NCBI GenBank assembly: GCA_029776225.1
Contig: JAKOTR010000035.1
Coordinates: forward strand, 186,001 to 250,000
Source: Acidobacteriota bacterium
GTDB lineage: Bacteria; Acidobacteriota; Terriglobia; Bryobacterales; Bryobacteraceae
Reading direction: 5' to 3'
DNA length: 64,000 nucleotides
In this document: positions 20,496-36,113 of the stretch, piece by piece
Position numbering within the stretch: position 1 is the first letter of the stretch
Layout: each line of letters begins with the position of its first letter
Made by a program: the position numbers and the translations under genes
Notes under the pieces: model-generated
Databases searched by the model: none
What the model was told of the DNA's origin: nothing
Seen by the model: only the letters and a program-made list of their open reading frames with translations

Positions 20496-21207
20496 AAACT
20501 GGCTGACCACGTCCGGAACTCGTGCAGTTTCGCTTCGTTTTTCTGAAGCCACTCGGCGGCGTCGGGCATCCGCGCCGCCTGCCACGCATGGGCGACGAAC
20601 GCCTCCAGGTGCTCCGCTTGCTGCATGGCTGCGAAGTACGGGGCATAGTAACCAGCGGCGAAGCCCTTCCGTTTGGCCGTCGCCTCGAGGGTGGATGCAA
20701 TGACGCCGTAAATCGTGACCAGCCTCTTGTAGGGAGACAGCTTTTCCCCCTCTCGAATGTGGTAGCCGCGACGCTCACAGACATCGCGAGTTCAGTAGCA
20801 AGGAAATCTCCTTCATCCTTCGGGGAGTCGGGCGTCAGATAGACCGTGATGTTGGCCTGCCCTGGCTTGCCGCCGCTGCTCACTCCGCTGCGATGAGTCC
20901 TTCCAGAGCCGGGAGAACCTGCACGCTTCGCGGCGTTCTCGTAATCTTTCAGGGCAAAGTACGTCATGGACACCTCGTGCAGCGCATGAACCTGGTCGGG
21001 CGACTCGGACAGCACCTGCTTGTACTTCGCCAGCGCTCCTTCGTAATCGCCAGCGTCACGGAGAGCGATGCCTCCTCTGATGAGTTGCCGCTGATAAGGC
21101 GTGGGAGCCGGCGGCACGCGCTTCGGCTTGGGAAGCTTTTCGGCACAGAGCGCCGCCGCGGGAAGCGAGGCAAACACCAGCAAAGCACAAGCAAACGGTC
21201 TTGGCAT
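20474..21207 (-). pseudogene. Frameshifted TPR-protein gene
   Basis: Starts at 21207 with a signal peptide (MPRPFACALLVFASLPAAALCA) and a TPR unit (YQRQLIRGGIALRDAGDYEG...). It continues to SGGKPGQANITVYLTPDSPK and FLATELAMSVSVAATTFERG. At the run of five G and four A (revcomp of about 20740-20750) the sensible frame shifts by one base: the old frame becomes basic nonsense, while the new one reads KLSPYKRLVTIYGVIASTLE, YYAPYFAAMQQAEHLEAFV and FRTWSASFQWPKSK and stops at 20474. The stretch between the TPR unit and SGGKPGQ (RAGSPGSGRTHR) also looks unnatural, so a second lesion or a deletion of further TPR units is possible. A sequencing indel in the homopolymer is the alternative. Confidence 0.6.
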
Positions 21208-21388
21208 GGTCTTTCGGGGCGGTCGCAATGGACCGCCACGGCGATGATGGTGCACACGCCGTGCGAGACGGCGCCGAGCCATTTCACTTCAGCATGAGCA
21301 AACGCGGACCCGTGAAACGTGAAAAAGGTTTTATTTGCGTCCGCAGAGGTTTGCGCGTATTTCCGGCCGTTGGCAGCCTTCCCAGGAC

Positions 21389-21397
21389 TAGTACCGT
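21389..21397. promoter_or_regulatory. AGTACCGT element in the 21.2-21.5 kb gap
   Basis: TAGTACCGT here matches 13252-13260 exactly, with the preceding C also shared. It lies about 105 bases before the outer-membrane barrel gene in the 295-base gap between that gene and the decayed TPR gene. A TATCAT word (21405-21410) follows and could be a -10 box. Nothing else was recognised in this gap. Confidence 0.35.
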
Positions 21398-21502
21398 CGC
21401 GGTGTATCATTTTAGATTCACATGGCCCGCTATTGGGCGACCAGGGGTCCGCAAGTTGATGTACTCGCAAAGTGGGCAGAGGACGTCTGTTAGGAATTGT
21501 TG

Positions 21503-22315
21503 ATGAGTATGAAATTCAAAGCCTGTTTTCTTATGGCAATGGCGGCGGGTGCGCTGTGGGGGCAGGAAGCGCCGCAGGAAACCAAGCCTCAGCCGAGGCA
21601 GCCGCCGCCGCTGTCTACGGGGGCTGTCTTCAAGGAGCCGGTGTACGTGCGCCGGTTCTCGGCCGGAGTGACCCTCAGCGTCCTGGGCCTGTCGCCCTTC
21701 CGCAGGGACAGCGCGTTTGTTTATACGGAACTGCCGCCCGTGGACGCTGTTCACGATACCGAGGACATATCGCGGCGGGTCGGCTTTGGGCTCACCGTTC
21801 AGGGCGCTGTCTCCGAGCGCTGGGCGGTGAACGCCGGTATCTTCCTCCGTCCCAATATCGGTTATACGCGTTTCAGCGATATCTACGAGGGGACTGATAA
21901 CCCGAGCACCCCACAGGATGACCGGACGCACATCAACCGGCGTGAGGAAACAAGGTTTCGCTACTACGATATCCCAGTAACGCTCCGGTACTACGGCCTG
22001 GACCGCCACGATCCGGGTCCGCGGTGGTTCATCGAGTTCGGTGGCGCTTTGCGCCGCGTCGCCCGCGTCAGGACCTCGATCAGCCAGCAGGTCGGCGATG
22101 AAGACATGCAGTGCTGCGACACCACCCCCGCGACCCCGGCGCGCCGCACGATTCGCGGCCTGGTGGCCGGTTTCGGAGTTCAGGTGATTGACCCCGTGGG
22201 AGTTCGAGTCGTTCCGCAAGTGCGCTTTACCCGCTGGGCCGCCGACACGTTTGATCAGCCCTCCACCTCCACTCAGCGGAACCAGTTGGAAGCGATGATT
22301 TCGCTCACGTTCTGA
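21503..22315 (+). CDS. Predicted outer-membrane beta-barrel protein
   Basis: 270 residues from the ATG at 21503, set by AGGAA six bases upstream. Signal peptide (KFKACFLMAMAAGALWGQ), a proline-rich linker, then ~220 residues of amphipathic strands (FSAGVTLSVLGLSPF, VGFGLTVQGAVSERWAVNAGIFLRPNIGYTRF in pieces, RWFIEFGGALRRVARVR, VRVVPQVRFTRWAADTF) ending in LEAMISLTF, whose terminal phenylalanine is the usual barrel-assembly signal. A Cys-Cys pair occurs in a periplasmic or surface loop. Function unknown. It converges on the deformylase gene with an 11-base overlap. Confidence 0.65.
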   Translation: MSMKFKACFLMAMAAGALWGQEAPQETKPQPRQPPPLSTGAVFKEPVYVRRFSAGVTLSVLGLSPFRRDSAFVYTELPPVDAVHDTEDISRRVGFGLTVQGAVSERWAVNAGIFLRPNIGYTRFSDIYEGTDNPSTPQDDRTHINRREETRFRYYDIPVTLRYYGLDRHDPGPRWFIEFGGALRRVARVRTSISQQVGDEDMQCCDTTPATPARRTIRGLVAGFGVQVIDPVGVRVVPQVRFTRWAADTFDQPSTSTQRNQLEAMISLTF

Positions 22316-22847
22316 CGAGGGAAGCAGCGGGCCCGGCGGAGAGGCGCGTCAGCCCGGCCCGCTGGAATTCCTCGCGCGTGGCGAGGCTGCCGGGGCCGCT
22401 TGCGCGATCTATGGCCAGAATGCCGTCCAGGTGGTCCATCTCGTGCTGGAGCAACTCCGAGAACGCGCCGGAGACATTCAGCGTCCGGGATTCGCCCGCG
22501 GGGGTCAGATAGCGCACCGTGACCGAAACGGAGCGCTTGACCCGAACCACGAGGCTGGGGAAGGAAAAACAATCATCCCAGACCAGGCATTTCTCCCTGC
22601 TCCTGCGCGCGTAGACAGGGTTGATGAGCGCGTACGGCACGCCGTCGAATTCGATGTAGATGATGCGCTGAAGCTCCCCGATCTGCACCGCGCTGATTCC
22701 GCGGCCGAAGCCGTGCGTCCGGCGGAAATCCCGCAACGTGGCACGCAGGTCGCGCAGAATCAGGCGGGCGTCGGCAGGGCGCGCGACGGGCGAGGAGACC
22801 TGTCTGAGCATCGGGTCGCCAAGCTGAAGGATGCGGCGCACTGGCAT
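22305..22847 (-). CDS. def: Peptide deformylase family protein
   Basis: 180 residues from the ATG at 22847 (a GTG 7 codons upstream is the alternative). The three deformylase motifs are present in modified form: GRGISAVQIG for GxGxAAxQ, WDDCFSF for EGCLS, and the metal helix QHEMDHLDG (HExxDH type). The cysteine and two histidines that bind the metal are intact, so activity is plausible, but motif 2 lacks the usual EGCLS context. It may be an accessory deformylase with another specificity. Confidence 0.75.
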   Translation of the reverse strand: MPVRRILQLGDPMLRQVSSPVARPADARLILRDLRATLRDFRRTHGFGRGISAVQIGELQRIIYIEFDGVPYALINPVYARRSREKCLVWDDCFSFPSLVVRVKRSVSVTVRYLTPAGESRTLNVSGAFSELLQHEMDHLDGILAIDRASGPGSLATREEFQRAGLTRLSAGPAASLVRT

Positions 22848-22903
22848 AGTCAAATGATAGCCCGGCACACCCCCGGATTCAGGATATAGTGGTCGTTTCG
22901 CCT

Positions 22904-23908
22904 ATGAAACTGACCAGCAAAGCACCATGCCGGGTCGACCTGGCCGGCGGAACCCTGGACATCTGGCCGCTCTACCTGTACCACTCCCACGCGGTCACTG
23001 TGAACTTCGCGATCAACCGCTATGCGACGTGCGTTCTGGAAACCCGGGACGACGACCGCATCGTTTTGAGTTCCAAGGACCTCAAGGGCGAGGAGGAGTT
23101 TGAGTCCCTCGACGCCCTCCGAAGCGCCACGAAGTACCGCCTCCCGCTTGCAGCCTACCTGGTGCGCTTCTTCGCGCCGAAGACGGGCCTGACTCTCAGG
23201 ACGGATTCCGAGGCGCCGGCGGGGGCGGGCATCGCGGGCTCCTCCACGCTCATCATCGCGACCGTGAGTGCGCTGAACCGGCTCACCGGCGCGGGTTACA
23301 AGTTGGAGCAGCTCCGCGAAATTTCGCAAAACATCGAAGCCCAGATCATCCGCGTGCCCACGGGATCGCAGGACTATTATCCGGCGATGTACGGCGGCGT
23401 CAGCGCCATCGAACTCGGGCCGGCGGGCATCGTACGCAAGCAGATCCCAGTGGATCTGGAGGATTTCAACGAGCGCATCGTGCTGGCCTACACCGGAGTG
23501 CCGCGCAATTCCGGGATCAATAACTGGGAAGTGACCAAGGCCCACATCGACGGCGACCGCAAGGTGCACCGCAACTTCGACCGCATCGCCGCCATTGCCA
23601 ACGCCATGCGCGGCGCGCTCGAAAAGAGCGATTGGCCCGAGGTGGGGCGGTTGCTGCGCGAGGAGTGGGCACACCGCCGCAAAAACGCGCCCGGGATCAC
23701 CACGCCCCTGATCGACCGCCTCGTTGCGGTAACGCGGCGGGCGGGCGCGATCGGCGCCAAGGTGTGCGGCGCGGGCGGCGGCGGCTGCGTTTTCTTCCTG
23801 GTGGAACGCGGCGCAAAGCAGAAGGTTTCCGAGGTCATCGAGCGCGAGGGAGCCAGCGTGCTGCCCGTCCAGGTAGCGCCCTGTGGAGTCAAGGTCAGCG
23901 TGCGATGA
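22904..23908 (+). CDS. GHMP-family sugar kinase
   Basis: 334 residues from the ATG at 22904; a GTG five codons upstream is less likely. GHMP fold: N-terminal substrate strand KAPCRVDLAGGTLDIWPLYL, phosphate loop EAPAGAGIAGSSTLIIATV, and C-terminal motif AKVCGAGGGGCVFFLV. The RVDLAGGTLD start resembles heptose 7-phosphate kinases (HddA) and related sugar kinases. A heptose-phosphate adenylyltransferase gene lies at 43.3 kb, which would suit a heptose role. Its stop overlaps the CPBP protease start as ATGA. Confidence 0.75.
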   Translation: MKLTSKAPCRVDLAGGTLDIWPLYLYHSHAVTVNFAINRYATCVLETRDDDRIVLSSKDLKGEEEFESLDALRSATKYRLPLAAYLVRFFAPKTGLTLRTDSEAPAGAGIAGSSTLIIATVSALNRLTGAGYKLEQLREISQNIEAQIIRVPTGSQDYYPAMYGGVSAIELGPAGIVRKQIPVDLEDFNERIVLAYTGVPRNSGINNWEVTKAHIDGDRKVHRNFDRIAAIANAMRGALEKSDWPEVGRLLREEWAHRRKNAPGITTPLIDRLVAVTRRAGAIGAKVCGAGGGGCVFFLVERGAKQKVSEVIEREGASVLPVQVAPCGVKVSVR

Positions 23909-24762
23909 CGACGCGGCTGCCGGACAAGGCGCTGGCGACGATCCTAAGGGTCGGGGTATTCGTCATTTTGGCCATCGCCGGGCTGTACGTGTTCGGATGG
24001 GCCTTATTCCCGTTCGGATACCTGGTGGCGAGCGCCCTCAGCGTCTTTGCGGCGGCCGCCGCTGCCAATGCGCTGGCAATGCGGATCTACGAGCAGGCCT
24101 CTCTGGTGGAAACCGGGCTGCACTGGACCCCGGCTTCGGCCCGCAACCTGCTGGTGGGGCTGGGGAGCGGGATCGCGGCGGCGGTCTTGATCCTGGCTGG
24201 GCCGCTGGTGGCCGGCGCTGCGGAGCTGGTGAAAGCGCCGGGAGCCGAGGCGCAGGCGTCTTCGATTCTGATGCTGCTGGTGATTCTGATATTTGGCGGC
24301 ATCGGCGAGGAGCTGCTGTTCCACGGCTACGGTTTTCAAGTTCTGCTGGGCGCGGTGGGACCGGTAGCGGCGATTCTGCCGGTCAGCGTGTTGTTCGCGC
24401 TGGCGCACAGTGGGAATCTCAACGTAAGCACGCTCGGCCTGATCAACACGGGGCTGTGGGGGGTCGTTCTGGGATACGCCTTCTGGCGGAGCGGCGACCT
24501 TTGGCTGCCGATCGGCCTGCACGTGGGCTGGAATTGGATGCTGCCGCTTTTCGGCACGAATCTGAGCGGGTTTACAATGAATGTAACGGGTTACGTGATG
24601 CGCTGGCACGCGGGGCCGTTGTGGAGCGGAGGCGACTACGGGCCGGAAGGAGGCCTGCTGACCAGCGCGGTGGTTGTTGTGCTGTTCGTCTGGCTGGCTT
24701 TTAAAGCGCCTGTCCGGCGGCAAAGGCCGTTTCTGCTGCGAGAGCGCCGGCAGGCTGAATAG
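23905..24762 (+). CDS. CPBP-family intramembrane metalloprotease
   Basis: 285 residues from the ATG at 23905, overlapping the kinase stop. About six to eight membrane segments. CPBP/Abi motifs: GGIGEELLFHGYGFQ (the EExxxR-type motif, with H in place of the usual R), FALAHSGN (FxxxH) and LHVGWNW (HxxxN/D). Family members include CAAX prenyl proteases and bacteriocin-immunity proteins. The H-for-R change in motif 1 makes activity slightly uncertain. Confidence 0.8.
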   Translation: MTTRLPDKALATILRVGVFVILAIAGLYVFGWALFPFGYLVASALSVFAAAAAANALAMRIYEQASLVETGLHWTPASARNLLVGLGSGIAAAVLILAGPLVAGAAELVKAPGAEAQASSILMLLVILIFGGIGEELLFHGYGFQVLLGAVGPVAAILPVSVLFALAHSGNLNVSTLGLINTGLWGVVLGYAFWRSGDLWLPIGLHVGWNWMLPLFGTNLSGFTMNVTGYVMRWHAGPLWSGGDYGPEGGLLTSAVVVVLFVWLAFKAPVRRQRPFLLRERRQAE

Positions 24763-24791
24763 CACAAGGCAAAGACCCGCGGGAGGTTCCG

Positions 24792-25589
24792 ATGCGCAGA
24801 TGCTTTCCCCTCGCGCTGGCAATCGTTTCGGTGACTGGGCTCGCCGCTGGAGAAGAAAAACTAACCAACGAGCAGCGGATCGAATTGATCCGCGGGTTGA
24901 CCGCCGAGTACGCAACCGTCAAAGCGCAGCTTCCGCGATCGAAAAAGGACCTTCCATTCCACAGCACGGGCGAGTATGACAAGGAAGTCTGGGCCGACGC
25001 CTGGAGGGAATTCGGCCCGGCGGCCCGCGTTGGCGATCTCGTGCAGGTGAGCAAGATCGAGATCCAGGACAAGAAAATCGTGCTGGAGATCAACGGCGGC
25101 TTCAACAGCGGCAAGCCGAAGTGGTACGAGCGGATCGAAGTCGGAATGGGCACCAGCGGCCGGACTACGACGATCGGCCAGCCCACGACGAATGCGCCCA
25201 GCGGAACCTCCATAGCGCTGCTGTTTCCGGGACGCGTGCCGCCCCTCAGGCCGGACGACGTCAAGAAGATGCTCGCGCCGATTCTGGATTTTGAGAAGCG
25301 CTCCGCCGCGGAGACCTTTATGGAGAGCCTGCCACCCGAGTTTCAGGAGGCGGTGAAGGAGAAGCGCGCGGTGGAGGGGATGAACCGCGACCAGGTCATC
25401 TTCGCGATGGGCAGGCCCGCGCGCAAGGTGCGTGAGACCAAGGATGGCATGGAACTGGAGGACTGGATTTACGGCACGCCTCCGGGCCGGATCGTGTTCG
25501 TTACGTTCCACGGCGACAAGGTGATCAAGGTCAAGGAAGACTACGCCGGGCTGGGCATGGCGGCTCCGCCGCTCGACCCGCCGCGGTGA
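24792..25589 (+). CDS. Secreted hypothetical protein with BamE-like C-terminal region
   Basis: 265 residues with a signal peptide (MRRCFPLALAIVSVTGLAAG). The middle is a beta-rich domain (VGDLVQVSKIEIQDKKIVLE, IEVGMGTSGRTTTIG). The last ~70 residues read GMNRDQVIFAMGRPARKVRE, then WIYGTPPGRIVFVTFHGDKV, the pattern of SmpA/OmlA (BamE-like) folds that often sit in outer-membrane assembly factors. The function is not known. It follows the CPBP gene and its stop abuts the stop of the convergent sensor kinase. Confidence 0.55.
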   Translation: MRRCFPLALAIVSVTGLAAGEEKLTNEQRIELIRGLTAEYATVKAQLPRSKKDLPFHSTGEYDKEVWADAWREFGPAARVGDLVQVSKIEIQDKKIVLEINGGFNSGKPKWYERIEVGMGTSGRTTTIGQPTTNAPSGTSIALLFPGRVPPLRPDDVKKMLAPILDFEKRSAAETFMESLPPEFQEAVKEKRAVEGMNRDQVIFAMGRPARKVRETKDGMELEDWIYGTPPGRIVFVTFHGDKVIKVKEDYAGLGMAAPPLDPPR

Positions 25590-26744
25590 TCACGCTGTGA
25601 CGGGCACGCGGATCTTCAGGCCCGCGCCGTGGCCCGGCCGCGATTCGATCTGAAGATCGCCGCCGAGGCTGCGGACGCGCCTTTTGATGCTCTGCGGGCC
25701 GAGGCGCAGCAGGTCCAGTTCATCCAAGGAAAACGTGCCGCTGAAGGCGAACCCCGTTCCGTCGTCGTCCACCGAAATCTCCACGTTCTTGCCCGCATGC
25801 TCGAGGGCGACCACCACGCGCGACGCCTTGGAGTGCTTCTGCACGTTGTGCAGCGCTTCGCGGAGGATCTGGAGCACCTCCTGGCCGATCTCCGGCGGCA
25901 GCCGCACCTCGCTCTGCGCGCTGATGAAGCGCGCGGAAATTGCGGTGTCCTTCTGGAAGTACTCGACAATGCGGCGGACGGAGGTCACCAGGTCGCTCGA
26001 GTCCACTTCGACCGGCTTCATGCTGCGCAGGAACGAGCGGATCTCGCTGACCTGCGAACGCGCGATCTGCTGTAATTCCCGGAGGTCCTCCAGGGCGGCG
26101 TTCCGGTCGCGCTTGAAGAGCGTTTCGAGGATGTCCAGGCGCACTTGCAGCCCGATAAAGCTTTGCAGCGGGCCGTCGTGGAAGTCGCCGGCGATCCGCT
26201 GGCGTTCCTGGTCGCGGATATGCTCGGCCTCGGCGCGCAGAGCGGCCTCGCGGCGCCCGGCTTCGAGCAGCCGGTCCTGAAGGCGCCGCTTCATATCGCC
26301 GGCCAGACAGGCGAGCAGTCCGGTGGCGACGACGACGTGCCGCAGGGCGGCGGCGTCGGGCCTGCGGACGAAGGCGTAGAATCCGATGCAGGCGCCGACA
26401 ATGATGCAAACGTCGCTCCAGTCGTGATGCATCACGGCCACGGTCATCAGGTAGAGGAACAGCATGGTTCCGATCCACCCGCTCTTGTCCGCGCCGTAAA
26501 CCGAAAATGCGATGAAAAAGGCGGTGTCTACGAAAAGGCTGGGGAGGGAAACCTGGATCTCATCAATCTTCTTCCACAGCAGCGCGACCAGGCTGTACAC
26601 GACGTACGCAGCCGTGACCATCGTCAGCGGGCGCTCGAGGGAAGAGAAGAAGACCTGCGCGTACAGGCAGGCGAATGCAAGCACCGCGCGGACGACGCTG
26701 CGCAGCCATCGTGACTCCCGCGCGAGCGATCCTGCGGCGGCCAT
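25590..26744 (-). CDS. NarL-type sensor histidine kinase (HisKA_3)
   Basis: 384 residues. Four to five N-terminal membrane segments (residues ~15-155) with no recognised sensor domain, then a coiled coil, the HisKA_3 dimerisation helix with phospho-acceptor histidine in RIAGDFHDGPLQSFIGLQ, and a HATPase_c domain (EALHNVQKHSKA, DDDGTGF, GLKIRV end). The glycine-rich ATP lid is partly altered (SIKRRVRSLGGDL). No LuxR-type regulator adjoins it. Confidence 0.85.
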   Translation of the reverse strand: MAAAGSLARESRWLRSVVRAVLAFACLYAQVFFSSLERPLTMVTAAYVVYSLVALLWKKIDEIQVSLPSLFVDTAFFIAFSVYGADKSGWIGTMLFLYLMTVAVMHHDWSDVCIIVGACIGFYAFVRRPDAAALRHVVVATGLLACLAGDMKRRLQDRLLEAGRREAALRAEAEHIRDQERQRIAGDFHDGPLQSFIGLQVRLDILETLFKRDRNAALEDLRELQQIARSQVSEIRSFLRSMKPVEVDSSDLVTSVRRIVEYFQKDTAISARFISAQSEVRLPPEIGQEVLQILREALHNVQKHSKASRVVVALEHAGKNVEISVDDDGTGFAFSGTFSLDELDLLRLGPQSIKRRVRSLGGDLQIESRPGHGAGLKIRVPVTA

Positions 26745-26755
26745 CTCCGGTCCGG

Positions 26756-27292
26756 CTACCTGCGATACAGGTAGAGCGTATGGCTGCGGCCCTCGCCGTC
26801 ATCCTCGATCTGTTCGACTTTTTCGGGTGTCCAGCCGGAAAACTCGAAGTCGTGCGCGACAACGCGCGCGCCCTTCTTGAGCTGCTTTTCGAGCAGCGGG
26901 CGCAGCTTGTCGTTGGAGGAGGGCAGCAGGTAGACCGTCAGCAGGTCAGCCGAGCTGTAATCCTGCTTCATGATGTCGCCGCGAATGATGCGGGCCCGTT
27001 TTTCCAGCCCCAGCGCCTTGATCCGGTCGGTGCTCTGCTTCCAGAGGTCCTTGTCGAACTCGACGCCGGTGGCATCGGCCTGGAACTTGCTCGCGGCCAT
27101 GATCACGATGCGGCCATCGCCGCTGCCGAGATCGAACATCTTTTCGCCCGGCTTCAGACCGCCGAGCTGAAGCATCTTCTCGACGATGGTTTCCGGGGTC
27201 GGGTAGTACGGCGCGAGTTTTTCGGTTTGGTTGTCCTGGGCGAGGCAAAGAACGCCGAGCAAGACAGGCAAAACGAACGTTCTCTTCAGCAT
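26756..27292 (-). CDS. Signal-peptide-bearing class I SAM methyltransferase
   Basis: 178 residues beginning with a signal peptide (MLKRTFVLPVLLGVLCLAQ). The rest is a compact class I methyltransferase: motif I is MFDLGSGDGRIVIMAA, the SAM-binding acid is ATGVEFDKDLW, and IIRGDIMKQDYSSADLL follows. The DOT1-like order suggests a protein or small-molecule target, but a SAM-dependent enzyme outside the cytoplasm is puzzling because SAM is not known to be available there. The signal could instead act as a membrane anchor. It lies between two sensor kinase genes on the same strand. Confidence 0.7.
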   Translation of the reverse strand: MLKRTFVLPVLLGVLCLAQDNQTEKLAPYYPTPETIVEKMLQLGGLKPGEKMFDLGSGDGRIVIMAASKFQADATGVEFDKDLWKQSTDRIKALGLEKRARIIRGDIMKQDYSSADLLTVYLLPSSNDKLRPLLEKQLKKGARVVAHDFEFSGWTPEKVEQIEDDGEGRSHTLYLYRR

Positions 27293-27390
27293 GCGAACCT
27301 CAGGCTAGCAGTGTACCAGAACCGCCGGCCCCGGGGCGCCGGGGGCCTTGCCGCCGCGGCATCCGGAGGCGCCCTGCGCGGCGTCTTGGC

Positions 27391-29088
27391 CTACCTGCCC
27401 TCCAGTACCTCCCGGATTTTCCGTCCCAGCGCTTCCGGAGTGAACGGCTTCTGAATGAAGGCGGCGGTTCCCAAAGAGATGCTCCTGTCGGTGTACCCAG
27501 ACATGAACAGCACTTTCAGGCGGGGGTGGAGCGCCAGCAGTTTTTCGGAGAGTTCCTGGCCGCTCATCTCGGGCAGGACCACGTCTGTCAGCAGCAGGTG
27601 AATCGGGCCGGTATACCGGTGCTGGAACATCAACGCCTCGCTCGGCTTGGCGGCCTCGAAGACGGTATAGCCGCGTGCGGACAGCACGGTGCGGACGAGC
27701 AGCCGCACTTTTTCGTCGTCCTCGACGACCAGAATCGTCTCGGTGCCGCGCGCGTCCGGCGCTTCGATCTCCGGCGCTTCGACAACGGCCTCTTCCACGC
27801 GCGGGAGATAGATTTTGAAAACCGAGCCTTGCCCAGGTTCGCTGTAGACCCAGAGACTTCCGCCGCTCTGCTTCACGATGCCGAAAACCGTCGAGAGCCC
27901 GAGTCCCGTTCCTTTTCCGTATTCCTTGGTTGTAAAGAACGGCTCAAAGATCCGTTCCTTCGTTGTCTGATCCATTCCGATCCCGGTATCGGTAATCGCC
28001 AGCATGACGTGCGGGCCGGCGCGCGCCTCCACGTGCTCGCGCGCGTATTCTTCGCTGAGTTCCACGTTCGCGGTTTCGATCGTCAGCCTGCCGCCGCGGG
28101 GCATCGCATCGCGGGCATTGACGGCCAGGTTCATGATGACCTGTTCAATCTGCGTGGGATCCGCTCTGACCTGCCCCAGGTCCCGGGCCAGAATGGTCGT
28201 AAGTTCGATATCGTCTCCCATCAGGCGCCTGAGCATCTTTTCTATCTCCATCACCACGCTGTTCAAGTTGATAACTTTGGGCTGGAGCATTTGCTTGCGG
28301 CTGAAGGCGAGTAACTGTTGAGTAAGTGACGCGGCCCGTTCGGCGGCGACTCTGATCTGTTCAACCTGGGAGTAAGTTGCTGTGGACCGGTCGGCGCCGG
28401 AGAGCACCAGGTCGGAAAAGCCCAGAATGACCGTGAGCAGGTTGTTGAAATCGTGGGCGACCCCGCCGGCGAGCCGCCCGATCGCTTCCATCTTTTGCGA
28501 CTGCATCAACTGCTCCTGCAAGTGCCGCCGCTGCGCCATTTCTTCGGACAGCTCGCGATTCGTGCTGCTCAGCCGTTCATTCGCTGTGGTGAGCTCTAGC
28601 GTGCGGGCGGCGACGCGCCGCTCGAGCTCCTCGTTAATCAGGCGCACTCGTTCCTCCGCCGCCCTTCGCTCTTCGATTTCGTTCGCCAGCGCTTCGTTGA
28701 TCTCTTGTAACTGAGCCGGACTTGGCATAACGAGCAGTGCGGGAACCAGTTGCCATAGCGCTATCGCCGTGGCGATGGAAGCCACCGCGGTGATCGCCTT
28801 GATGACCCCGTCGAGCCGGTAAGTCGGGTTCCAAACCGTCCAAACGCCCATCACGTGGGTCGTTCCGCAGGCAAAAATGAATGCCGCGAAGGCGAGAAAT
28901 ATCCAACTGAAGCTAAGGTCCGTCCGTTTTCGCGCGAACGAGAACAGGATAAGAGGAATGGAGTAGTAAGCCAGCGCGATCACCACGTCGGACACCACGT
29001 TGAGCCACAACACACTGGGCTCCCAGAAATAGCAGTGTCCGTGAGGCATGAACTCGCTTCCGAACAGGTTGCGGAAAAAATCCAGCAT
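27391..29088 (-). CDS. Ethylene-receptor-like hybrid histidine kinase
   Basis: 565 residues, with GGAGGGG before the ATG. Residues ~20-118 form three membrane helices matching the copper/ethylene-binding domain of plant ETR1 and cyanobacterial Etr1: D34, Y41, P45, C74 and H78 sit at the spacing of ETR1 Asp25, Tyr32, Pro36, Cys65 and His69 (SDVVIALAYYSIP, FACGTTHVMGVWT). A coiled coil (~125-195) replaces the GAF domain of ETR1. Then come a HisKA domain (H212 in GGVAHDFNNLL), HATPase_c (NLAVNARDA, DTGIGM, GTGLGLS) and a C-terminal receiver with D502 (LLLTDVVLPEMSG). It probably senses ethylene or another small ligand through Cu(I). Confidence 0.88.
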   Translation of the reverse strand: MLDFFRNLFGSEFMPHGHCYFWEPSVLWLNVVSDVVIALAYYSIPLILFSFARKRTDLSFSWIFLAFAAFIFACGTTHVMGVWTVWNPTYRLDGVIKAITAVASIATAIALWQLVPALLVMPSPAQLQEINEALANEIEERRAAEERVRLINEELERRVAARTLELTTANERLSSTNRELSEEMAQRRHLQEQLMQSQKMEAIGRLAGGVAHDFNNLLTVILGFSDLVLSGADRSTATYSQVEQIRVAAERAASLTQQLLAFSRKQMLQPKVINLNSVVMEIEKMLRRLMGDDIELTTILARDLGQVRADPTQIEQVIMNLAVNARDAMPRGGRLTIETANVELSEEYAREHVEARAGPHVMLAITDTGIGMDQTTKERIFEPFFTTKEYGKGTGLGLSTVFGIVKQSGGSLWVYSEPGQGSVFKIYLPRVEEAVVEAPEIEAPDARGTETILVVEDDEKVRLLVRTVLSARGYTVFEAAKPSEALMFQHRYTGPIHLLLTDVVLPEMSGQELSEKLLALHPRLKVLFMSGYTDRSISLGTAAFIQKPFTPEALGRKIREVLEGR

Positions 29089-29207
29089 CCGTGCCCCTCC
29101 AAGCTAGACCGATTATATCTCCGGGGCATTCAGAACCCGGGTGAGCTGCGGCAATGTTCAGAAGTTGCCAGAGCGCAAATAAGGTTTTCTCGCAGCGAAG
29201 CGCCCAG

Positions 29208-29687
29208 TTACCGGCGGATGTAGATCTGGACCAGATACACCGTGCCGTCTGGCGCGCGGGTGGCGCCGGTGCCCGCGCGGTTGAGGTCGCGGTCGAGCGC
29301 GTTCTGGCGGTGGCCGGGGCTTTTCATCCAACCCTCAACCGCTGCTTGTGCGAGATCCTGCGGACCCTTGCCGGCGTAGAGGTTTTCCGCTGCTTTTCTC
29401 CAGGAGATCCTCGCCAACTTTAGCCGGTCGCTAAGATTGCCGCGGATGGGATCGGAGTGTGAGAAGAACCTGTATTTCGCCATTCTTGCGGCGTGTTCGC
29501 GGGCAGCGGCGGCGAGCCGGTCGTCCCACTCCAGCGCGTTCAGCCCGAGCTCGGCGCGTTCCCGGTTGACAAGTTCCCAGACGCGCCGCTCGATCACGGC
29601 AAGCGGCTGTTCCGAAGTCTCCGGCTGTCCGGCCCACACCGCGAGGCAAGAGGCAAGCAGAAGCAGAGCCCGCACGGGATGGCGCAT
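29208..29687 (-). CDS. Secreted CAP-domain (SCP/PR-1-like) protein
   Basis: 159 residues from the ATG at 29687 (a TTG two codons upstream is possible). Signal peptide (RALLLLASCLAVWAG), then a CAP domain: VNRERAELGLNALEWDDRLAAAAREHA, FFSHSDP, AAENLYAGKG, GWMKSPGHRQNALD and VYLVQIY. The histidine and glutamate ring of the CAP cavity is present (REHA, FSHSD, AENL, PGHR). The role in bacteria is uncertain. Confidence 0.85.
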   Translation of the reverse strand: MRHPVRALLLLASCLAVWAGQPETSEQPLAVIERRVWELVNRERAELGLNALEWDDRLAAAAREHAARMAKYRFFSHSDPIRGNLSDRLKLARISWRKAAENLYAGKGPQDLAQAAVEGWMKSPGHRQNALDRDLNRAGTGATRAPDGTVYLVQIYIRR

Positions 29688-29750
29688 ACTCAATTATCGC
29701 CCGCTGCATTCACCTTTGGTTTTCGGTTACTGTAGTCTGATAACTGGCCC

Positions 29751-31169
29751 ATGACCCAAGTACTGATGGTGGCATCCGAAGCGATCCCGTTCGCGAAGAC
29801 GGGGGGACTCGCCGATGTGGTGGGCTCGCTCTCTCCGACGCTGCTGGCGCAGGGCGAGCAGGTAGCCGTGCTCATGCCTCGCTACCGCGGAATCAGCGTC
29901 CAAGGTCTGCCGCGCGTCTATGAGGATCTGCGCGTGTGGTTCGGACCGGACTGCTACGTGTCGCACCTGTACCGCGCCGAACACCGCGGCGTCCCCTACT
30001 TCCTGCTGGATAACCCGGCGCTGTTCGAGCGCGATGGCCTCTACCAGGACCCCAACGGCGTCGATTACCCGGACAACTATCTCCGCTTCGCCGTGCTTTC
30101 CGGCGCCGCGCTCATCGTTGTCCGGCACCTGTTCCGCCCGCAGGTGATCCACTGCCACGACTGGCAGGCAGCGCTCGTTCCCGTCTATATGCGCACGCGC
30201 TTTGGTCTCGACCCGACGTTCATGGGCATCAAGACGCTGCTCACCATTCACAACCTCGGCTATCAGGGCCTGTTCCCGCCGTCGATCTTGCCGAAGATCG
30301 GGCTCGACCCGGGGCTGTTCCGGCCGGAAGCGCTGGAATTCTACGGGCAGGTGAACCTGTTGAAGGGCGGTTTGATTTACAGCGACGCCATCAACACCGT
30401 CAGCCGGAAATACGCCGAGGAGATCCAAACGCCGGAGCTCGGCTTCGGACTCGATGGCGTGCTGCGCGAGCGCAGCGACGTGCTGAGCGGCATCCTCAAT
30501 GGCGTCGATTATTCCGAGTGGGATCCGCGCGTCGACCGGTACATCGCCGCCCGCTATTCGGCCGAGGACCTCGAAGGAAAGCGGGCCTGCAAGGCGGACC
30601 TGATCAACGAACTCGGTCTTTCCACCGGGCTCGAAACGCCGCTGATCGGCATTATTTCCCGTTTTGCCGGCCAGAAAGGTTTTGATTTGATTGAGGAGAT
30701 TGCGCCGCGGCTGCTCGAGCACGACGTTGCAGTGGCGGCTCTGGGCAGCGGCGATCCCAGCTACGAACGGATGTTTACGGACCTGGCGGCGGCGTACCCT
30801 GGGAGAGTCGCCGTGCGCATCGCTTTCGACGAAGCCCTGGCGCACAAAATCGAGGCCGGCGCCGATATATTCCTCATGCCGAGCCGGTACGAGCCTTGCG
30901 GGCTGAACCAGATCTACAGCCTGCGCTACGGAACCGTGCCGGTGGTCCGCGCGACCGGCGGCCTGGATGATACGATTGATACAGATACGGGCTTTAAATT
31001 CAACGGCTACACGGGGGAGGCCCTGCTGGAGGCCGTCCGCGCCGCGCTGGCCGCTTATCAAAATCGGGAACAATGGAGGCGCATGATGCTGGCCGGAATG
31101 CGCAAGGATTATTCCTGGAGCGCGTCGGCGATTGAGTATGCGGCAGTGTACAGGCGGCTGGTGGAATGA
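29751..31169 (+). CDS. glgA: Glycogen synthase
   Basis: 472-residue GT5 enzyme that extends alpha-1,4-glucan from ADP-glucose. N-terminal KTGGLADVVGSL gives the nucleotide-sugar lysine (K16). The C-terminal domain carries GSGDPSYERMF, FDEALAHKIEAGADIFLMPSRYEPCGLNQ in pieces (the conserved MPSRYEPCGLNQ) and VVRATGGLDDTI. Length and order are normal. It stands alone, with thioredoxin following after a 94-base gap. Confidence 0.92.
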   Translation: MTQVLMVASEAIPFAKTGGLADVVGSLSPTLLAQGEQVAVLMPRYRGISVQGLPRVYEDLRVWFGPDCYVSHLYRAEHRGVPYFLLDNPALFERDGLYQDPNGVDYPDNYLRFAVLSGAALIVVRHLFRPQVIHCHDWQAALVPVYMRTRFGLDPTFMGIKTLLTIHNLGYQGLFPPSILPKIGLDPGLFRPEALEFYGQVNLLKGGLIYSDAINTVSRKYAEEIQTPELGFGLDGVLRERSDVLSGILNGVDYSEWDPRVDRYIAARYSAEDLEGKRACKADLINELGLSTGLETPLIGIISRFAGQKGFDLIEEIAPRLLEHDVAVAALGSGDPSYERMFTDLAAAYPGRVAVRIAFDEALAHKIEAGADIFLMPSRYEPCGLNQIYSLRYGTVPVVRATGGLDDTIDTDTGFKFNGYTGEALLEAVRAALAAYQNREQWRRMMLAGMRKDYSWSASAIEYAAVYRRLVE

Positions 31170-31170
31170 A

Positions 31171-31207
31171 TCCCCTCAGCCGTTTTCTGCATCATGTATT
31201 TTTGACA
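31171..31207 (+). promoter_or_regulatory. Shared intergenic motif and -35-like box before trxA
   Basis: TCCCCTCAGCCGTTTTCT (31171-31188) matches TCCCCTGAGCCGTTTTTT at 41372-41389 in 16 of 18 positions. Downstream, TTGACA (31202-31207) is a perfect -35 hexamer 57 bases before the trxA start, with a weak TATCGC 16 bases on. A GAGGAA binding site precedes the trxA ATG. The promoter call is tentative. Confidence 0.35.
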
Positions 31208-31263
31208 GGGGAGGGCTCAAGATTATCGCCCAAACCCCCGATCATTGTGAGGAATGAATTAGC

Positions 31264-31596
31264 ATGGCGGGTGCAAACGTACTGACATTCAGCGATTCGA
31301 CTTTCGACAAGGACGTTCTCAATTCGGACGTGCCCGTGCTGGTCGATTTCTGGGCCGAGTGGTGCGGTCCGTGCAAGATGATGGCGCCGACGGTTGATCA
31401 GATTGCAGCCGAGTACGCCGGCAAGCTGAAGGTGGGCAAAGTCGATGTGGACGAAAACGGCGGCACGGCTATGCGCTTCAACATCCGCGGCATCCCTACG
31501 CTGCTGCTTTTCAAGAACGGCCGTGTAGTGGATTCGCGCGTTGGCGCGGTGGGCAGGTCCGAAGTCCTCAAGATGCTTGAGCCCCACATTCAGTAG
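31264..31596 (+). CDS. trxA: Thioredoxin
   Basis: 110 residues, classic thioredoxin with the WCGPC active site (C34, C37), the buried aspartate in VDFWAEW, cis-proline in RGIPTLLLFKNG and the terminal VGAVGRSEVLKML helix. Cytoplasmic; it reduces protein disulfides with NADPH through thioredoxin reductase. Followed by rlmN after 74 bases. Confidence 0.95.
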   Translation: MAGANVLTFSDSTFDKDVLNSDVPVLVDFWAEWCGPCKMMAPTVDQIAAEYAGKLKVGKVDVDENGGTAMRFNIRGIPTLLLFKNGRVVDSRVGAVGRSEVLKMLEPHIQ

Positions 31597-31670
31597 GTAT
31601 CCGCACCATTTCCGTCCTTTGATGTGCATGGAGGCCGGAGCCCAGCCGGCAAAGACTTGGATGGAGGATT

Positions 31671-32696
31671 ATGCAAGCCCTTCTGGGCTTGGAAGTCCAG
31701 GACATTGAACGGATCCTCGGGCCCGGCGAGCCGCGCTTCCGGGCGCGCCAGATCTACCGGGCGCTGTACCGGGAGCGGCAGCTCGATTTGATGCAAATTT
31801 CGACGCTGCCGCTCGAGTTGCGGCGGGAGCTGGCCTCCACGTATTCCGTGGGCATCCCCTCCGTGGAGCGGAGGTTCGAGTCGCAGGACGGAACGCGGCG
31901 CTACCTGCTGGCGCTTGAGGACGGCAAGACGGTCGAAGCCGTCTGGATGCCTGAGGAGAAGCGGCAGACCATCTGCATCTCCACCCAGGTGGGTTGCGCG
32001 GTGGGTTGCCGGTTCTGCATGACGGCGCTGCTGGGGTTCGAGCGCAACCTGAGCGCCGGAGAGATCGTGGGCCAGGTGCTGGCGGCGGCTGCTGATAACG
32101 GCCTCCCCGTTGGGGGGGAACGCCTCAACGTGGTCATGATGGGCCAGGGTGAGCCGCTGCTGAACCTGCCCAACGTCGTCAAGGCGACGCGCATTCTGAC
32201 CGATCCGGCCGGATGCGGCATTTCGCCGCGGCGCATCACGCTTTCCACTTCCGGCATCGTTCCCAAGATCCAGGAACTGGGGCACCAGGAGGTCCGTCCG
32301 AAGCTCGCCATCTCGCTCAACGCATCCACGGAAGAGATGCGGCGCGAGTTGATGCCCATCACCAGGAAGTATCACCTGAAGGATTTAATGGAAGCCTGCC
32401 GCGCCTACCCGCTGCGGCCCTGGGAGCGGCTGACGTTCGAGTACGTGCTGCTCAAGGGCGTCAACGACAGCGATGCGGACGCGCGGCGCGTGGTGAAGCT
32501 GCTGGCGAACCTCAAGTGCAAGGTGAACCTGATCGCTCTGAACCCGGGTCCGGAAATCCCGTTCGACACGCCGGAGGAGGAGAGAGTGCTGGCGTTTCAG
32601 CGGATCGTGAGCCGGGCCGTGCCCTGCTTTATCCGCAAGCCGCGCGGGCGGGACGTGTACGCGGCTTGCGGGCAGTTGAAGAAAGTCAGCCTGTAG
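31671..32696 (+). CDS. rlmN: 23S rRNA (adenine-2503-C2)-methyltransferase
   Basis: 341-residue radical SAM enzyme that methylates A2503 of 23S rRNA and A37 of some tRNAs. The iron-sulfur cysteines are C109, C113 and C116 ([11 protein letters not shown]), and the methyl-carrying cysteine is the C in YAACGQL near the C-terminus. [11 protein letters not shown] and [16 protein letters not shown] are family hallmarks. Preceded by a GGAGG-like site. Confidence 0.94.
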
Positions 32697-33539
32697 CTAC
32701 TTGGGCATGGGGCGCGGAGTCGCGTCGCCCGGGACCATTCCCATCAGCCACTTGACGTGCTCGACTAACATCTTCTGGATGTCGGAGCGGTCCCACACGG
32801 CTTCCACGTGGCCAAGCCCGTTGTACATTACGCGGCCCTTCCCGTAGTTGCGCACCCAGATGACGGCGAAGTCTTTATCGGTGCGGTGGACGCGCCGGTT
32901 ATTCAGATTGAGCTTATCTGCATCCAGCCTGAGCAGCACGCGGACCTTGTCGCGCGAGTAATCTTTCACCTGGTAAATTTCATCCCTCAACGTAAAGGCC
33001 CGCGGCAGGAAATTCATGCCGGGAAAGTTGGGGTCTTCGACTATAAGCGGAGCTTCGAAGGTGTCCCACGGGTGCTCATCGAAATAGCCGCCCACCATTT
33101 CGCCGTACTCCGGCCATTTGTAAAACGTATCGTTGCCGCTGTGGATGGCCAGAAAGCCCTTGCCGTCGTCCCTCACGAAGGAGAGCAAGTCGGCCTTCTG
33201 GGACTCATCCATATCGAGTTCGCCGCTTGTATAGAAAGCTACCGCGTCGAAGAAATTGAGGTTCTTGGCATTGTTTTGAAGCCTTTTCTTGGTGACGAGC
33301 TCGCAATCCGTTCTGATGTAAGTGTCCCAGAGGCCTGTTTCCTGGCCGAGTTTCCAGAGCGTCCCGGCGGCATGGGAAACCGCGTCATGCTGGAAACCTT
33401 TGGACTGGCCCACAAAGAGCAGCCTTTTTTTCTTGGCTTGCTGGGCGCCGGGCGCACTTTTCTTGGCCTGCTGGGCGGTGAGCGAACCGGCGAGCACCAG
33501 CCCGAGAACACCAACTATCGCGACACGAACCAGCTTCAT
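32697..33539 (-). CDS. Secreted ThuA-domain protein
   Basis: 280 residues. Signal peptide (LVRVAIVGVLGLVLAGSL), a short duplicated linker (QQAKK-SAPGA-QQAKKK), then a ThuA domain with a GATase-like fold: RLLFVGQSKGFQHDAVSHAA, FDAVAFYTSGEL, GFLAIHSGNDTFYKWPEYGE, GGYFDEHPW and the end VYNGLGH-like RVMYNGLGHVEAVW. Family members are tied to trehalose or other sugar use and are common as secreted proteins in soil acidobacteria and planctomycetes. The reaction is unknown. Stop abuts the convergent rlmN stop. Confidence 0.82.
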   Translation of the reverse strand: MKLVRVAIVGVLGLVLAGSLTAQQAKKSAPGAQQAKKKRLLFVGQSKGFQHDAVSHAAGTLWKLGQETGLWDTYIRTDCELVTKKRLQNNAKNLNFFDAVAFYTSGELDMDESQKADLLSFVRDDGKGFLAIHSGNDTFYKWPEYGEMVGGYFDEHPWDTFEAPLIVEDPNFPGMNFLPRAFTLRDEIYQVKDYSRDKVRVLLRLDADKLNLNNRRVHRTDKDFAVIWVRNYGKGRVMYNGLGHVEAVWDRSDIQKMLVEHVKWLMGMVPGDATPRPMPK

Positions 33540-33590
33540 CGAAACCTCCGCCCCGTCATCTTCTCACCGGCGAGTTTCCGGATGCAAGCG

Positions 33591-36113
33591 CTACCCGGCG
33601 AGTGCGCGGCGCAGCCGGTCCAGAGCGGGTTCGATGCGCTGGCGCGACTCCCAGAAATCGGCCCACAAGTCGCCGGTCCTTTCCAGGCGCGCGGGCATGG
33701 TTTTTATGGTGAACTGCTCGGGTCTCAGCGACGGGCGGAGTTCACCGGGCGTGATGGGCGCTGAAACGCAGGCCTGCGGAGTCGGGCGCACGCTATAGAC
33801 TGAGGCGAGCGGCCGCGAGTAGTTGAGCTGCGAGTAATCCAGCAGCACCCGGTTGTGCGGGCGCCTTTCCACGACGCGTTCGAAGGTCACCTTGTCCGGC
33901 ACGCGCGCGGCAGCCACTCGCGCGATGATTTCCGTGAAACGGTTTGCCTGCTCGAAATCGTAAACGCGCTCCAGGGGCACGAAAATATGCATGCCGCTGG
34001 CGCCCGAGGTCTTCAGATATCCCTTGAGCCCGATCTCGCTCAGCACATCGTGCACGGCGCGCGCCACCGCGACCACGGTCGAGTAGGGCGTCTCTTCGGT
34101 GGGATCGAGATCGATGAACAGGTAGTCGGGATGCGTGAGGTCGTCCACGCGGCTGGCCCAGGGGTTGTGGTCGATGCAGCCGAGGTTCGTCAGGTAGAGC
34201 AGCCCGGCGAGGTCGTTGACCATAAAGTAGCGGACGCCGTCGATGGGGACGGTGGGCATCCAATCCGCCGCGTACTCGCCCGCGTCCTTCTGGTAGAACA
34301 ACTGGCCGCGCATGCCTTCGGGCATGCGGCGCAGCACAAGCGGGCGGTCCCGGAGGAAAGGCAGAATCAGGGGTGCCACGTTGAGGTAATAACAGAGAAG
34401 GTCGCGCTTGGTGAGGTTTTCCTCGGGAAAGTAAAGCTTGTTCAGATGGGTGAAACGGAGGCGCCGCCCTTCAATCTCCGCGCTGACGGTCTCTGCGGTG
34501 GAGCGGCACAGTTCGGCCTGGAGCGTGTCCGCGGGTGCGGGGGGAGCAGCGGCGTCCATCATGACGCACTCGCGCGGATCCACGTCGGGGCGCAGGCCAA
34601 GAAACACCGGCGCGCGCAGGTGCTTGTCCCGCGTCCACTCGGAAAATTTAACTCGGGCTACCAGCGAAGGCCGCACCCATTCGGCTTTCTCGCGCGTCTG
34701 CGGCTTCTCCGCGAACGGAGGCTTGGGAGTGATGAGCGGGTTGAGCAGCTCCCGGACCTGCTCCTCCGATTTTCCGGTCAAGCCGCTGCCGCAGCCGCCG
34801 ACAAACCGCAGGTTCGGGCCGTCGTAAAGGCCCAGCAGCAGCGCGCCGATGCGGCCGCGGGCGCCGCGCTGGGCCGTAATACCACCTATGACCGCGTCCA
34901 ACTCGCTGGTGGATTTCAGCTTGACCCACTCGGCGCTGCGCCCGCTGCTGTAGCGGCTCTTGGCGCGCTTGCCGACAATGCCTTCCAGTTGCCGCTCCCG
35001 CGCTAGCCGGTACAGATCCTCGCCGCGGCCGGCGATGTGATCGGAAAAACGGAAAGGTCCCCCTGCCGGCAGTATCCGTTTCAAAAAATCTTTTCTGGCG
35101 CTGAGCGGGACGCCTCGCAGGTCGTACCCGTCGCAGTAGAGTATGTCGAACAGGTAATAGATCACGGGCACTTCGGCCAGCAAGGCCGCCGAAGGGCGCG
35201 CGGCGCTCATCCGCTGCTGCATCAGGGAGAAGTCGGGCCGGCCCTCGCTATCGGGCGCCACGACCTCGCCATCGAGCACCGCCTGTTTCACCGGGAGCCT
35301 TGCGGGCAGGCCGGCGAGTTCGGGGAACTGCTGCGTGACGATCCGATTGCGGCGCGACCGCAGCTCCAGCGCGCCGTCGCGCACAAAGGCGAGCACGCGC
35401 ATGCCGTCCCACTTCAATTCGAACAGCCAGTCGGGATCGGAAAACGGCTTTTCGATCAGCGTGGCGAGCATGGGCTCGACTGAGGCGGGCATGGGCGCTT
35501 TCCGCGCGCCTTCCAATCCCTCGGGACCGGTTGGACGCGCCGGTAGTCCCGCTTCGATTTCACTCATGCTGCGGCCGGAGAGCACGGACCAGTTCAGCTT
35601 CTCGATGTCCCAGTCCGGGTCAGCCGCTTCGTCGCGATGCTTGATGAGCAGCCAGTTCTTCTGGTCCTTGGGATCGGCGGCGCGCCTGCCGCTGTGTACG
35701 AGCGCGAAGCCGCCGCGCAGCTTGCGGCCGTAAAGCCGGATCTTCATCTCCCCGCGCGCAAGCTGCTCGGCCGCGCTTCCGCCACCCTCAACCTCGTATG
35801 TGCCGTTGTCCCAAACCATCACCGTGCCGGCGCCGTAATTGCCTTCGGGGATGATGCCTTCGAACGTGGCGTAGTCGAGAGGATGGTCCTCGGTTTGGAC
35901 CGCCAGGCGTTTGTCGGCCGGATTGAGAGACGGGCCTTTCGGCACCGCCCAGGAAACCAGCACGCCGTTGATCTCCAGCCGCAGATCCCAGTGCATGCGC
36001 GTGGCGTCGTGCTGCTGGACGACGAAGCTGTTTCCGCCGCTGCCCGCCGGCTTGGGTGGCGGCTCCGGCGTCGCTTCAAACTTGCGCTTTTTCCGGTATT
36101 CTTCCAGCGGCAA
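33591..36113 (-). CDS. ligD: Fused DNA ligase D (phosphoesterase-ligase-polymerase)
   Basis: 840 residues. Order is PE (1-~170), LIG (~205-520), POL (~545-835). The PE metal residues H35, H41, D43 and H77 are present. The ligase nucleotidyl lysine is K234 in FELKWDGMR, with VVAPDSEG, GIVGKRAKSRYSSGRS and VKLKSTSELDAV as later motifs. The POL domain has the catalytic DLDP (LFIDLDPTEET) and TSGASGMHIFVPL. It starts at a TTG nine bases after the stop of a separate PE gene, with AGGGG as binding site. LigD repairs double-strand breaks with Ku; no Ku gene is in the window. Confidence 0.92.
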   Translation of the reverse strand: MPLEEYRKKRKFEATPEPPPKPAGSGGNSFVVQQHDATRMHWDLRLEINGVLVSWAVPKGPSLNPADKRLAVQTEDHPLDYATFEGIIPEGNYGAGTVMVWDNGTYEVEGGGSAAEQLARGEMKIRLYGRKLRGGFALVHSGRRAADPKDQKNWLLIKHRDEAADPDWDIEKLNWSVLSGRSMSEIEAGLPARPTGPEGLEGARKAPMPASVEPMLATLIEKPFSDPDWLFELKWDGMRVLAFVRDGALELRSRRNRIVTQQFPELAGLPARLPVKQAVLDGEVVAPDSEGRPDFSLMQQRMSAARPSAALLAEVPVIYYLFDILYCDGYDLRGVPLSARKDFLKRILPAGGPFRFSDHIAGRGEDLYRLARERQLEGIVGKRAKSRYSSGRSAEWVKLKSTSELDAVIGGITAQRGARGRIGALLLGLYDGPNLRFVGGCGSGLTGKSEEQVRELLNPLITPKPPFAEKPQTREKAEWVRPSLVARVKFSEWTRDKHLRAPVFLGLRPDVDPRECVMMDAAAPPAPADTLQAELCRSTAETVSAEIEGRRLRFTHLNKLYFPEENLTKRDLLCYYLNVAPLILPFLRDRPLVLRRMPEGMRGQLFYQKDAGEYAADWMPTVPIDGVRYFMVNDLAGLLYLTNLGCIDHNPWASRVDDLTHPDYLFIDLDPTEETPYSTVVAVARAVHDVLSEIGLKGYLKTSGASGMHIFVPLERVYDFEQANRFTEIIARVAAARVPDKVTFERVVERRPHNRVLLDYSQLNYSRPLASVYSVRPTPQACVSAPITPGELRPSLRPEQFTIKTMPARLERTGDLWADFWESRQRIEPALDRLRRALAG

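Follow-up and report, generated by a model that had tools for sequence, protein, structure and literature searches.

A probable Etr1-type bacterial ethylene receptor in an acidobacterium, with a near-invariant cysteine ahead of its predicted copper site

Arabidopsis ETR1 is located in the endoplasmic reticulum, and to our knowledge few bacterial ethylene receptors have been tested so far. AzoEtr1 of Azospirillum brasilense Sp7 (525 aa, OH82_RS30505) is a proven proteobacterial case: saturable 14C-ethylene binding was measured for its residues 1-130, and its D35A and C75A variants did not rescue biofilm formation, a result that the authors qualify by their two-plasmid setup (accessible text of PMC11819568). 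According to the same text, it contains a PAS domain, has no receiver of its own and is encoded beside a response regulator gene. SynEtr1 (slr1212) of Synechocystis shares the ETR1_N domain with other cyanobacterial Etr1 proteins and with the receptor described here; its GAF domain senses light, and a separate regulator, slr1213, is its putative target (PMC7700396, in part). The earlier note on this DNA had presented Etr1-like sensors as established in cyanobacteria, which understates their range in view of AzoEtr1, and had held that a C-terminal receiver sets the present protein apart from ETR1; the receiver is there, but ETR1 itself has one (accessible portion of PMC6586836). Seven residues are required for ethylene binding in ETR1, of which the accessible text of PMC11819568 reports the number; D25, C65 and H69 are named there, as is K91.

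The window, that is, the whole 64,000-nucleotide stretch analysed, contains the receptor gene at the position given by the earlier note, on the minus strand (Table 1). The frame opens with an ATG at 29088, directly 5' of which lies a GGAGG stretch resembling a ribosome-binding site, and the last base of its stop codon is 27391. The earlier note had called for a profile comparison of the N-terminus, and the Pfam model ETR1_N (PF25487) matches it with an E-value of 7.4e-39 and 132.4 bits, far above the curated cut-off of 27 bits. A profile search of the 5.2 Mb assembly found this domain once. Downstream of the sensor, Pfam places HisKA at residues 204-266 and HATPase_c at 310-430. The kinase motifs are complete, with H212 in AHDFNN and the N, G1 and G2 boxes in place, as are those of the receiver (D457/D458, D502 and K547), in which D502 is the likely phospho-acceptor. 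GAF and PAS domains are absent from the Pfam scan of the 565-residue protein, which bears out the earlier description of a GAF-less kinase. The best NCBIfam match is to CckA-like hybrid kinases (NF046020), which have the HisKA-HATPase-receiver core in common with the receptor; identity with CckA was rejected, as the 423 bits lie far under the curated cut-off of 1000 and the sensor differs. Rfam gave 0 matches in 20000-36000, and a scan of 25400-29900 found no promoter and seven terminators, against 4.0 expected.

Table 1. Features of the receptor gene, in window positions
Feature	Position	Strand	Basis
Etr1-type hybrid histidine kinase, 565 aa	27391..29088	-	ORF and translation; Pfam ETR1_N, HisKA, HATPase_c and Response_reg
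PHGHC motif, residues 15-19, with near-invariant Cys19	29032..29046	-	row counts in relatives
Ethylene-binding (ETR1_N) domain, residues 26-119	28732..29013	-	Pfam; residue columns; AlphaFold2 helices
Long helix, coiled-coil-like linker, about residues 124-203	28480..28719	-	AlphaFold2 models
HisKA and HATPase_c, residues 204-430	27799..28479	-	Pfam, motif positions
Receiver domain, residues 452-558	27415..27735	-	Pfam, motif positions

The binding site of ETR1 is preserved in full. In the residue columns, D34, Y41, I44, P45, I71, C74 and H78 each stand at the ETR1 number plus 9, where we take Y32, I35, P36 and I62 to be the rest of the seven-residue site, and K97 occupies the place of ETR1 K91. 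Five of these pairs (D34, Y41, P45, C74 and H78 with ETR1 D25, Y32, P36, C65 and H69) had been proposed in the earlier note and hold at the constant offset of 9. In the window's six frames, the corresponding D/Y/P/C/H pattern at its exact spacing occurs once, where composition predicts 0.0015 occurrences. An Asp-to-Asn change in the ETR1 membrane domain weakens binding about 100-fold (accessible part of PMC13012798, where the residue number is not given); the residue concerned is presumably D25, and the receptor carries Asp at that position.

The sensor is 52% identical to that of AzoEtr1 over residues 11-123, and AzoEtr1 D35, C75, H79 and K98 correspond to D34, C74, H78 and K97 here; the copy taken from the Sp7 plasmid (L095) has 525 aa counted from the first Met and D35, in agreement with PMC11819568. 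The two proteins have in common the site residues, an N-terminal PHGxC motif and a histidine kinase output, whereas the receptor here has a coiled-coil-like linker and a fused receiver, with no regulator among the scanned neighbours. Within the aligned stretch, two cyanobacterial Etr1 proteins, L096 from a Kovacikia plasmid and L099, are 60% and 63% identical to the receptor. Plant ETR1 is 41% identical over 91 residues of its N-terminus and resembles the receptor in the seven site residues, the K91 equivalent and the hybrid kinase architecture with a receiver, but the GAF domain of ETR1 is absent here and PHGHC stands in place of ETR1 Cys4/Cys6. The ETR1_N match, the seven site residues and the likeness to an ethylene-binding protein make binding of ethylene via Cu(I) likely, and the protein is probably an Etr1-type bacterial receptor that senses ethylene at the membrane. 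The earlier interpretation thus stands as to an ethylene-receptor-type sensor on a GAF-less hybrid kinase, and falls as to the receiver contrast, with a range beyond cyanobacteria that it understated. The sensor kind is already known from several bacteria, so the protein is a well-preserved new case of it, not a novel system: a complete-site ethylene receptor with a fused receiver and with neither GAF nor PAS.

Structural modeling agrees with this assignment. AlphaFold2, run on residues up to 165 with an alignment of 25 named relatives, gave helices at 24-54, 61-86 and 90-120 with a mean pLDDT of 91.7 (122/165 residues at or above 90). Three membrane-length helices are thus predicted to bear the binding-site residues, and an N-terminus on the outside would fit the basic character of first-loop residues 53-55. 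In the same model an output helix runs continuously through 124-164, with pLDDT of 92-98 in this block, and the coiled coil described in the earlier note fits this long helix from residue 124, as far as a model ending at residue 165 covers it. The full-length model made without an alignment is poor (mean pLDDT 46.6), but predicts helix beyond residue 164 as well. No solved structure matches the ETR1_N domain by sequence, in line with a review from 2026 describing the structural basis as only partially understood (accessible part of PMC13012798). Foldseek found no PDB match at E <= 0.001 for the model of the sensor domain. VIA-align gave Z-scores of up to 9.6 to BAR domains, NuoK-like proteins and other helical bundles; such matches are common for helical models, and the Foldseek and VIA-align matches were set aside as general helical bundles rather than taken as evidence of fold.

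Starting from the computed domain, site residues, predicted helices, and kinase and receiver motifs, we infer copper and ethylene binding, dimerisation, a direction of signalling, an HPt partner and regulated genes. The three N-terminal helices would hold Cu(I) via C74 and H78, with D34, Y41 and P45 shaping a pocket close to the membrane's outer face. Binding of ethylene to the copper would move the helices, and the long coiled coil would relay this movement to the histidine kinase, altering phosphorylation at H212 and, in the attached receiver, at D502. A separate HPt protein would probably pass the phosphate on to a response regulator. Elsewhere, the genome encodes a free-standing 122-aa HPt protein (L190, 1417-1785), a possible phosphorelay partner of the hybrid kinase. 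Both this protein and a Cu+ P-type ATPase encoded in the genome fit the receptor reading.

Genomic neighborhood analysis did not reveal such a partner. On the same strand as the receptor, a scan of ten neighbours identified a methyltransferase downstream (26756-27292), a HisKA_3 kinase beyond it (25590-26744) and a CAP-domain protein upstream (29208-29693). The methyltransferase-fold protein has a signal-peptide-like start and lies about 100 bases past the receptor gene, with the HisKA_3 kinase about 11 bases further; these two genes and the receptor possibly form one transcript. The ten neighbouring proteins scanned included no recognisable response regulator, either next to the receptor or next to the HisKA_3 kinase, and none had an ethylene-specific or plant-related function; a search of the genome for ACC deaminase gave no match. 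The neighbourhood was compared with 40 regions of 3 to 16 kb extracted from relatives, some ending at contig ends, with gene calls from a basic script; the receptor could be identified in all of them but L183 (39 of the 40). No conserved set emerged for the 13 nearest gene picks: the sole neighbour match was that of peptide deformylase, with a homologue close to the receptor in a single region (L175), and the neighbouring kinase matched, in its two cases, the receptors themselves. Two picks were in the wrong frame (23883-24704 overlies a CAAX-protease frame at 23632-24762, and 31192-31629 a thioredoxin-like frame at 31264-31596); with at least 2 of the 13 misplaced, at most 11 neighbours were truly compared. 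Conserved neighbourhood was therefore dropped as a route to a partner, as no partner emerged.

The unexpected aspect of the receptor is Cys19, which, together with C74, makes up all its cysteines. Cys19 is present in 111/111 fetched relatives that keep D34, Y41, C74 and H78; apart from these four selection residues, only F70 (111/111) and S104 (110/110) are as fixed, when positions with letters in over 100 rows are compared. When rows are divided by the copper ligands, Cys19 occurs in 118/119 rows that have C74, H78 and a letter at position 19 (the exception being L026), against 1/9 rows lacking C74 or H78 (L050, in which Arg replaces His78). His16 follows a similar division, with 109/119 intact-site rows against 1/8 lost-site rows. 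Dropped before these counts were L077, which has no profile match, seven repeats of the same places (L085-L089, L091 and L092) and three rows with gaps at C74/H78; a further 5/124 intact-site and 5/14 lost-site rows are empty at position 19. The genome searches supplied loci of their best-scoring matches, which biases the sample to high-scoring copies. The motif reads PHGVC in AzoEtr1, and its P, H, G and C are found in 33/33 rows of the cyanobacterial set.

The tree tempers this pattern. Only three independent pairs on supported branches bear on the coupling of Cys19 with the copper site, with a median sign-test p of 0.25, so the counts alone do not make it statistically significant. The 14 lost-site rows keep Y90 in 3/14 and I71 in 3/14; since decaying copies shed many conserved positions together, the loss of Cys19 may be general decay. 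In view of the three-pair test and the high-scoring sample, the coupling is a lead, not a result, albeit one worth an experiment. One group of rows departs from the motif: L018-L021, L025, L026, L090 and L093 carry PRW in place of PHG, lack His16, and keep Cys19 except in L026. With L061, these rows form a starred clade with support of 100, and the members of the L061 clade come from Planctomycetota, Vampirovibrionales, Bacteroidota and others.

Two roles can be proposed for Cys19, and we regard as tentative the idea that the P-H-x-x-C cysteine, fixed like the copper ligands and tending to vanish with them, is a functional part of the site. It might serve copper entry or act as a third ligand that loads C74/H78, or it might form a redox disulfide that clamps the dimer and gates sensing. 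Cys19 may be a candidate for a disulfide-linked dimer, the clamp being the plain reading and copper entry or a third ligand the bolder one. In ETR1, Cys4 and Cys6 form a disulfide-linked dimer; with both changed, binding in yeast membranes is reduced and plant receptor mutants are still rescued (PMC2799528, in part), a rescue that by analogy counts against an essential role for Cys19. The genome also encodes an ordinary Cu+ P-type ATPase, which counts against a special copper route via Cys19. By our own count, ETR1 Cys6 presumably lies 19 residues before D25, and Cys19 here lies 15 before D34; homology of Cys19 to ETR1 Cys4/Cys6 is possible. In the main text of PMC11819568, the words 'cysteine', 'dimer' and 'disulfide' are absent. 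A role of Cys19 in copper loading or dimer gating, if true, would define a new element of the bacterial sensor and would be directly testable in AzoEtr1.

The same cysteines invite a different reading, in which the pocket reports Cu(I) availability or the oxidation of Cys19/C74 and ethylene is not the physiological signal. It draws on the position of the protein's sole two cysteines, C74 within the copper site and the near-invariant Cys19 preceding the first helix, and on the lack of an ethylene-related function among the scanned neighbours. Against it, D34, Y41, I44, P45 and I71, which ETR1 needs for ethylene binding besides its copper ligands, are all kept, and AzoEtr1 with the same motif binds ethylene; we consider this reading improbable.

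The ETR1_N domain is a known and widespread family, as its counts across many phyla indicate. Among genomes at least 80% complete, it is found in 30/150 of the receptor's own family and 23/396 of its own phylum (own genome included in both), in 64/244 of the phylum of a Vampirovibrionales genome, which we take to be Cyanobacteriota by GTDB usage, and in 18/241 of the class of a Methylobacterium genome. In the genus set, to which no completeness filter was applied, the domain occurs in 1/3 genomes, the one being the receptor's own; the other two (88% and 77% complete) gave no match, and the receptor may therefore be dispensable. The family count likewise suggests that ethylene sensing is common there but dispensable. 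Named carriers belong to Bacteroidota, Bdellovibrionota, Gemmatimonadota, Planctomycetota, Verrucomicrobiota and others, and the names or sources of some indicate sea or lake, which bears on the link to plants that the earlier note thought possible. The domain also occurs on 18 plasmid records, of which 7 are from Azospirillum; 14 control genomes and the phage records searched gave no match. A literature search with most subscription papers outside its scope found no paper on acidobacterial ethylene receptors by title (PMC4558063, in its accessible part, is a general survey), and within the same limits the ethylene-receptor papers checked for Solibacter do not mention it.

This breadth bears on the identity of the ligand. 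A Cu(I) olefin sensor tuned to a different small molecule, such as CO or an alkene other than ethylene, made by microbes and not by plants, would suit a domain widespread in lineages without obvious plant contact and a locus in which neither the ten neighbours nor the genome-wide ACC deaminase search yielded a plant-associated marker. The site residues are nevertheless identical to those of the proven ethylene receptor AzoEtr1, which leaves this reading quite unlikely. Retention of the sensor domain by descent with ligand binding lost has a precedent in the 14/138 relatives' rows without C74 or H78, but is hardly credible for a receptor that keeps every site residue and complete kinase and receiver motifs.

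Against the preferred reading, an ethylene receptor, stand the lack of a recognised regulator among the ten scanned neighbours, in contrast to AzoEtr1, the unconserved neighbourhood, the two genomes of the genus with no match and the lack of a match to a solved structure. This reading places the protein in a family of variable architecture. Across 40 scanned members, ETR1_N was found in 40, HATPase_c in 39, HisKA in 38, a receiver in 21 and any single PAS model in at most 15; GAF is absent from the 19 families found. Compared over its whole length with 39 receptors extracted from relatives, the protein is 56-60% identical to 12, each from its own family, and 29-44% identical to the remaining 27. 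In a tree of 117 rows and 120 columns (cyanobacterial rows thinned to 15, rows of fewer than 85 letters excluded), 58/114 inner branches are open. The receptor falls in an unstarred 18-row fork (86) with 13 other rows of its own family, two Pontibacter rows, one alphaproteobacterial row and one row of the same phylum.

Several genomes carry more than one copy. Two genomes of the receptor's own class, G489 (L064, L078, L081 and L084) and G342 (L059, L079, L082 and L083), encode four ETR1_N proteins each, several with the copper ligands replaced; L082 reads DFLFICR at the seven site positions. L072, from a further genome, reads NFLSVCQ there; L080 was noted alongside these copies. Copies with replaced copper ligands look, from these residues, as if they no longer serve ethylene. 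In the cyanobacterial set, up to nine ETR1_N proteins are encoded per genome (G677), with open frames of very different lengths, and two matches in G977 (L146 and L149) contain an internal TAG stop and are apparently broken genes.
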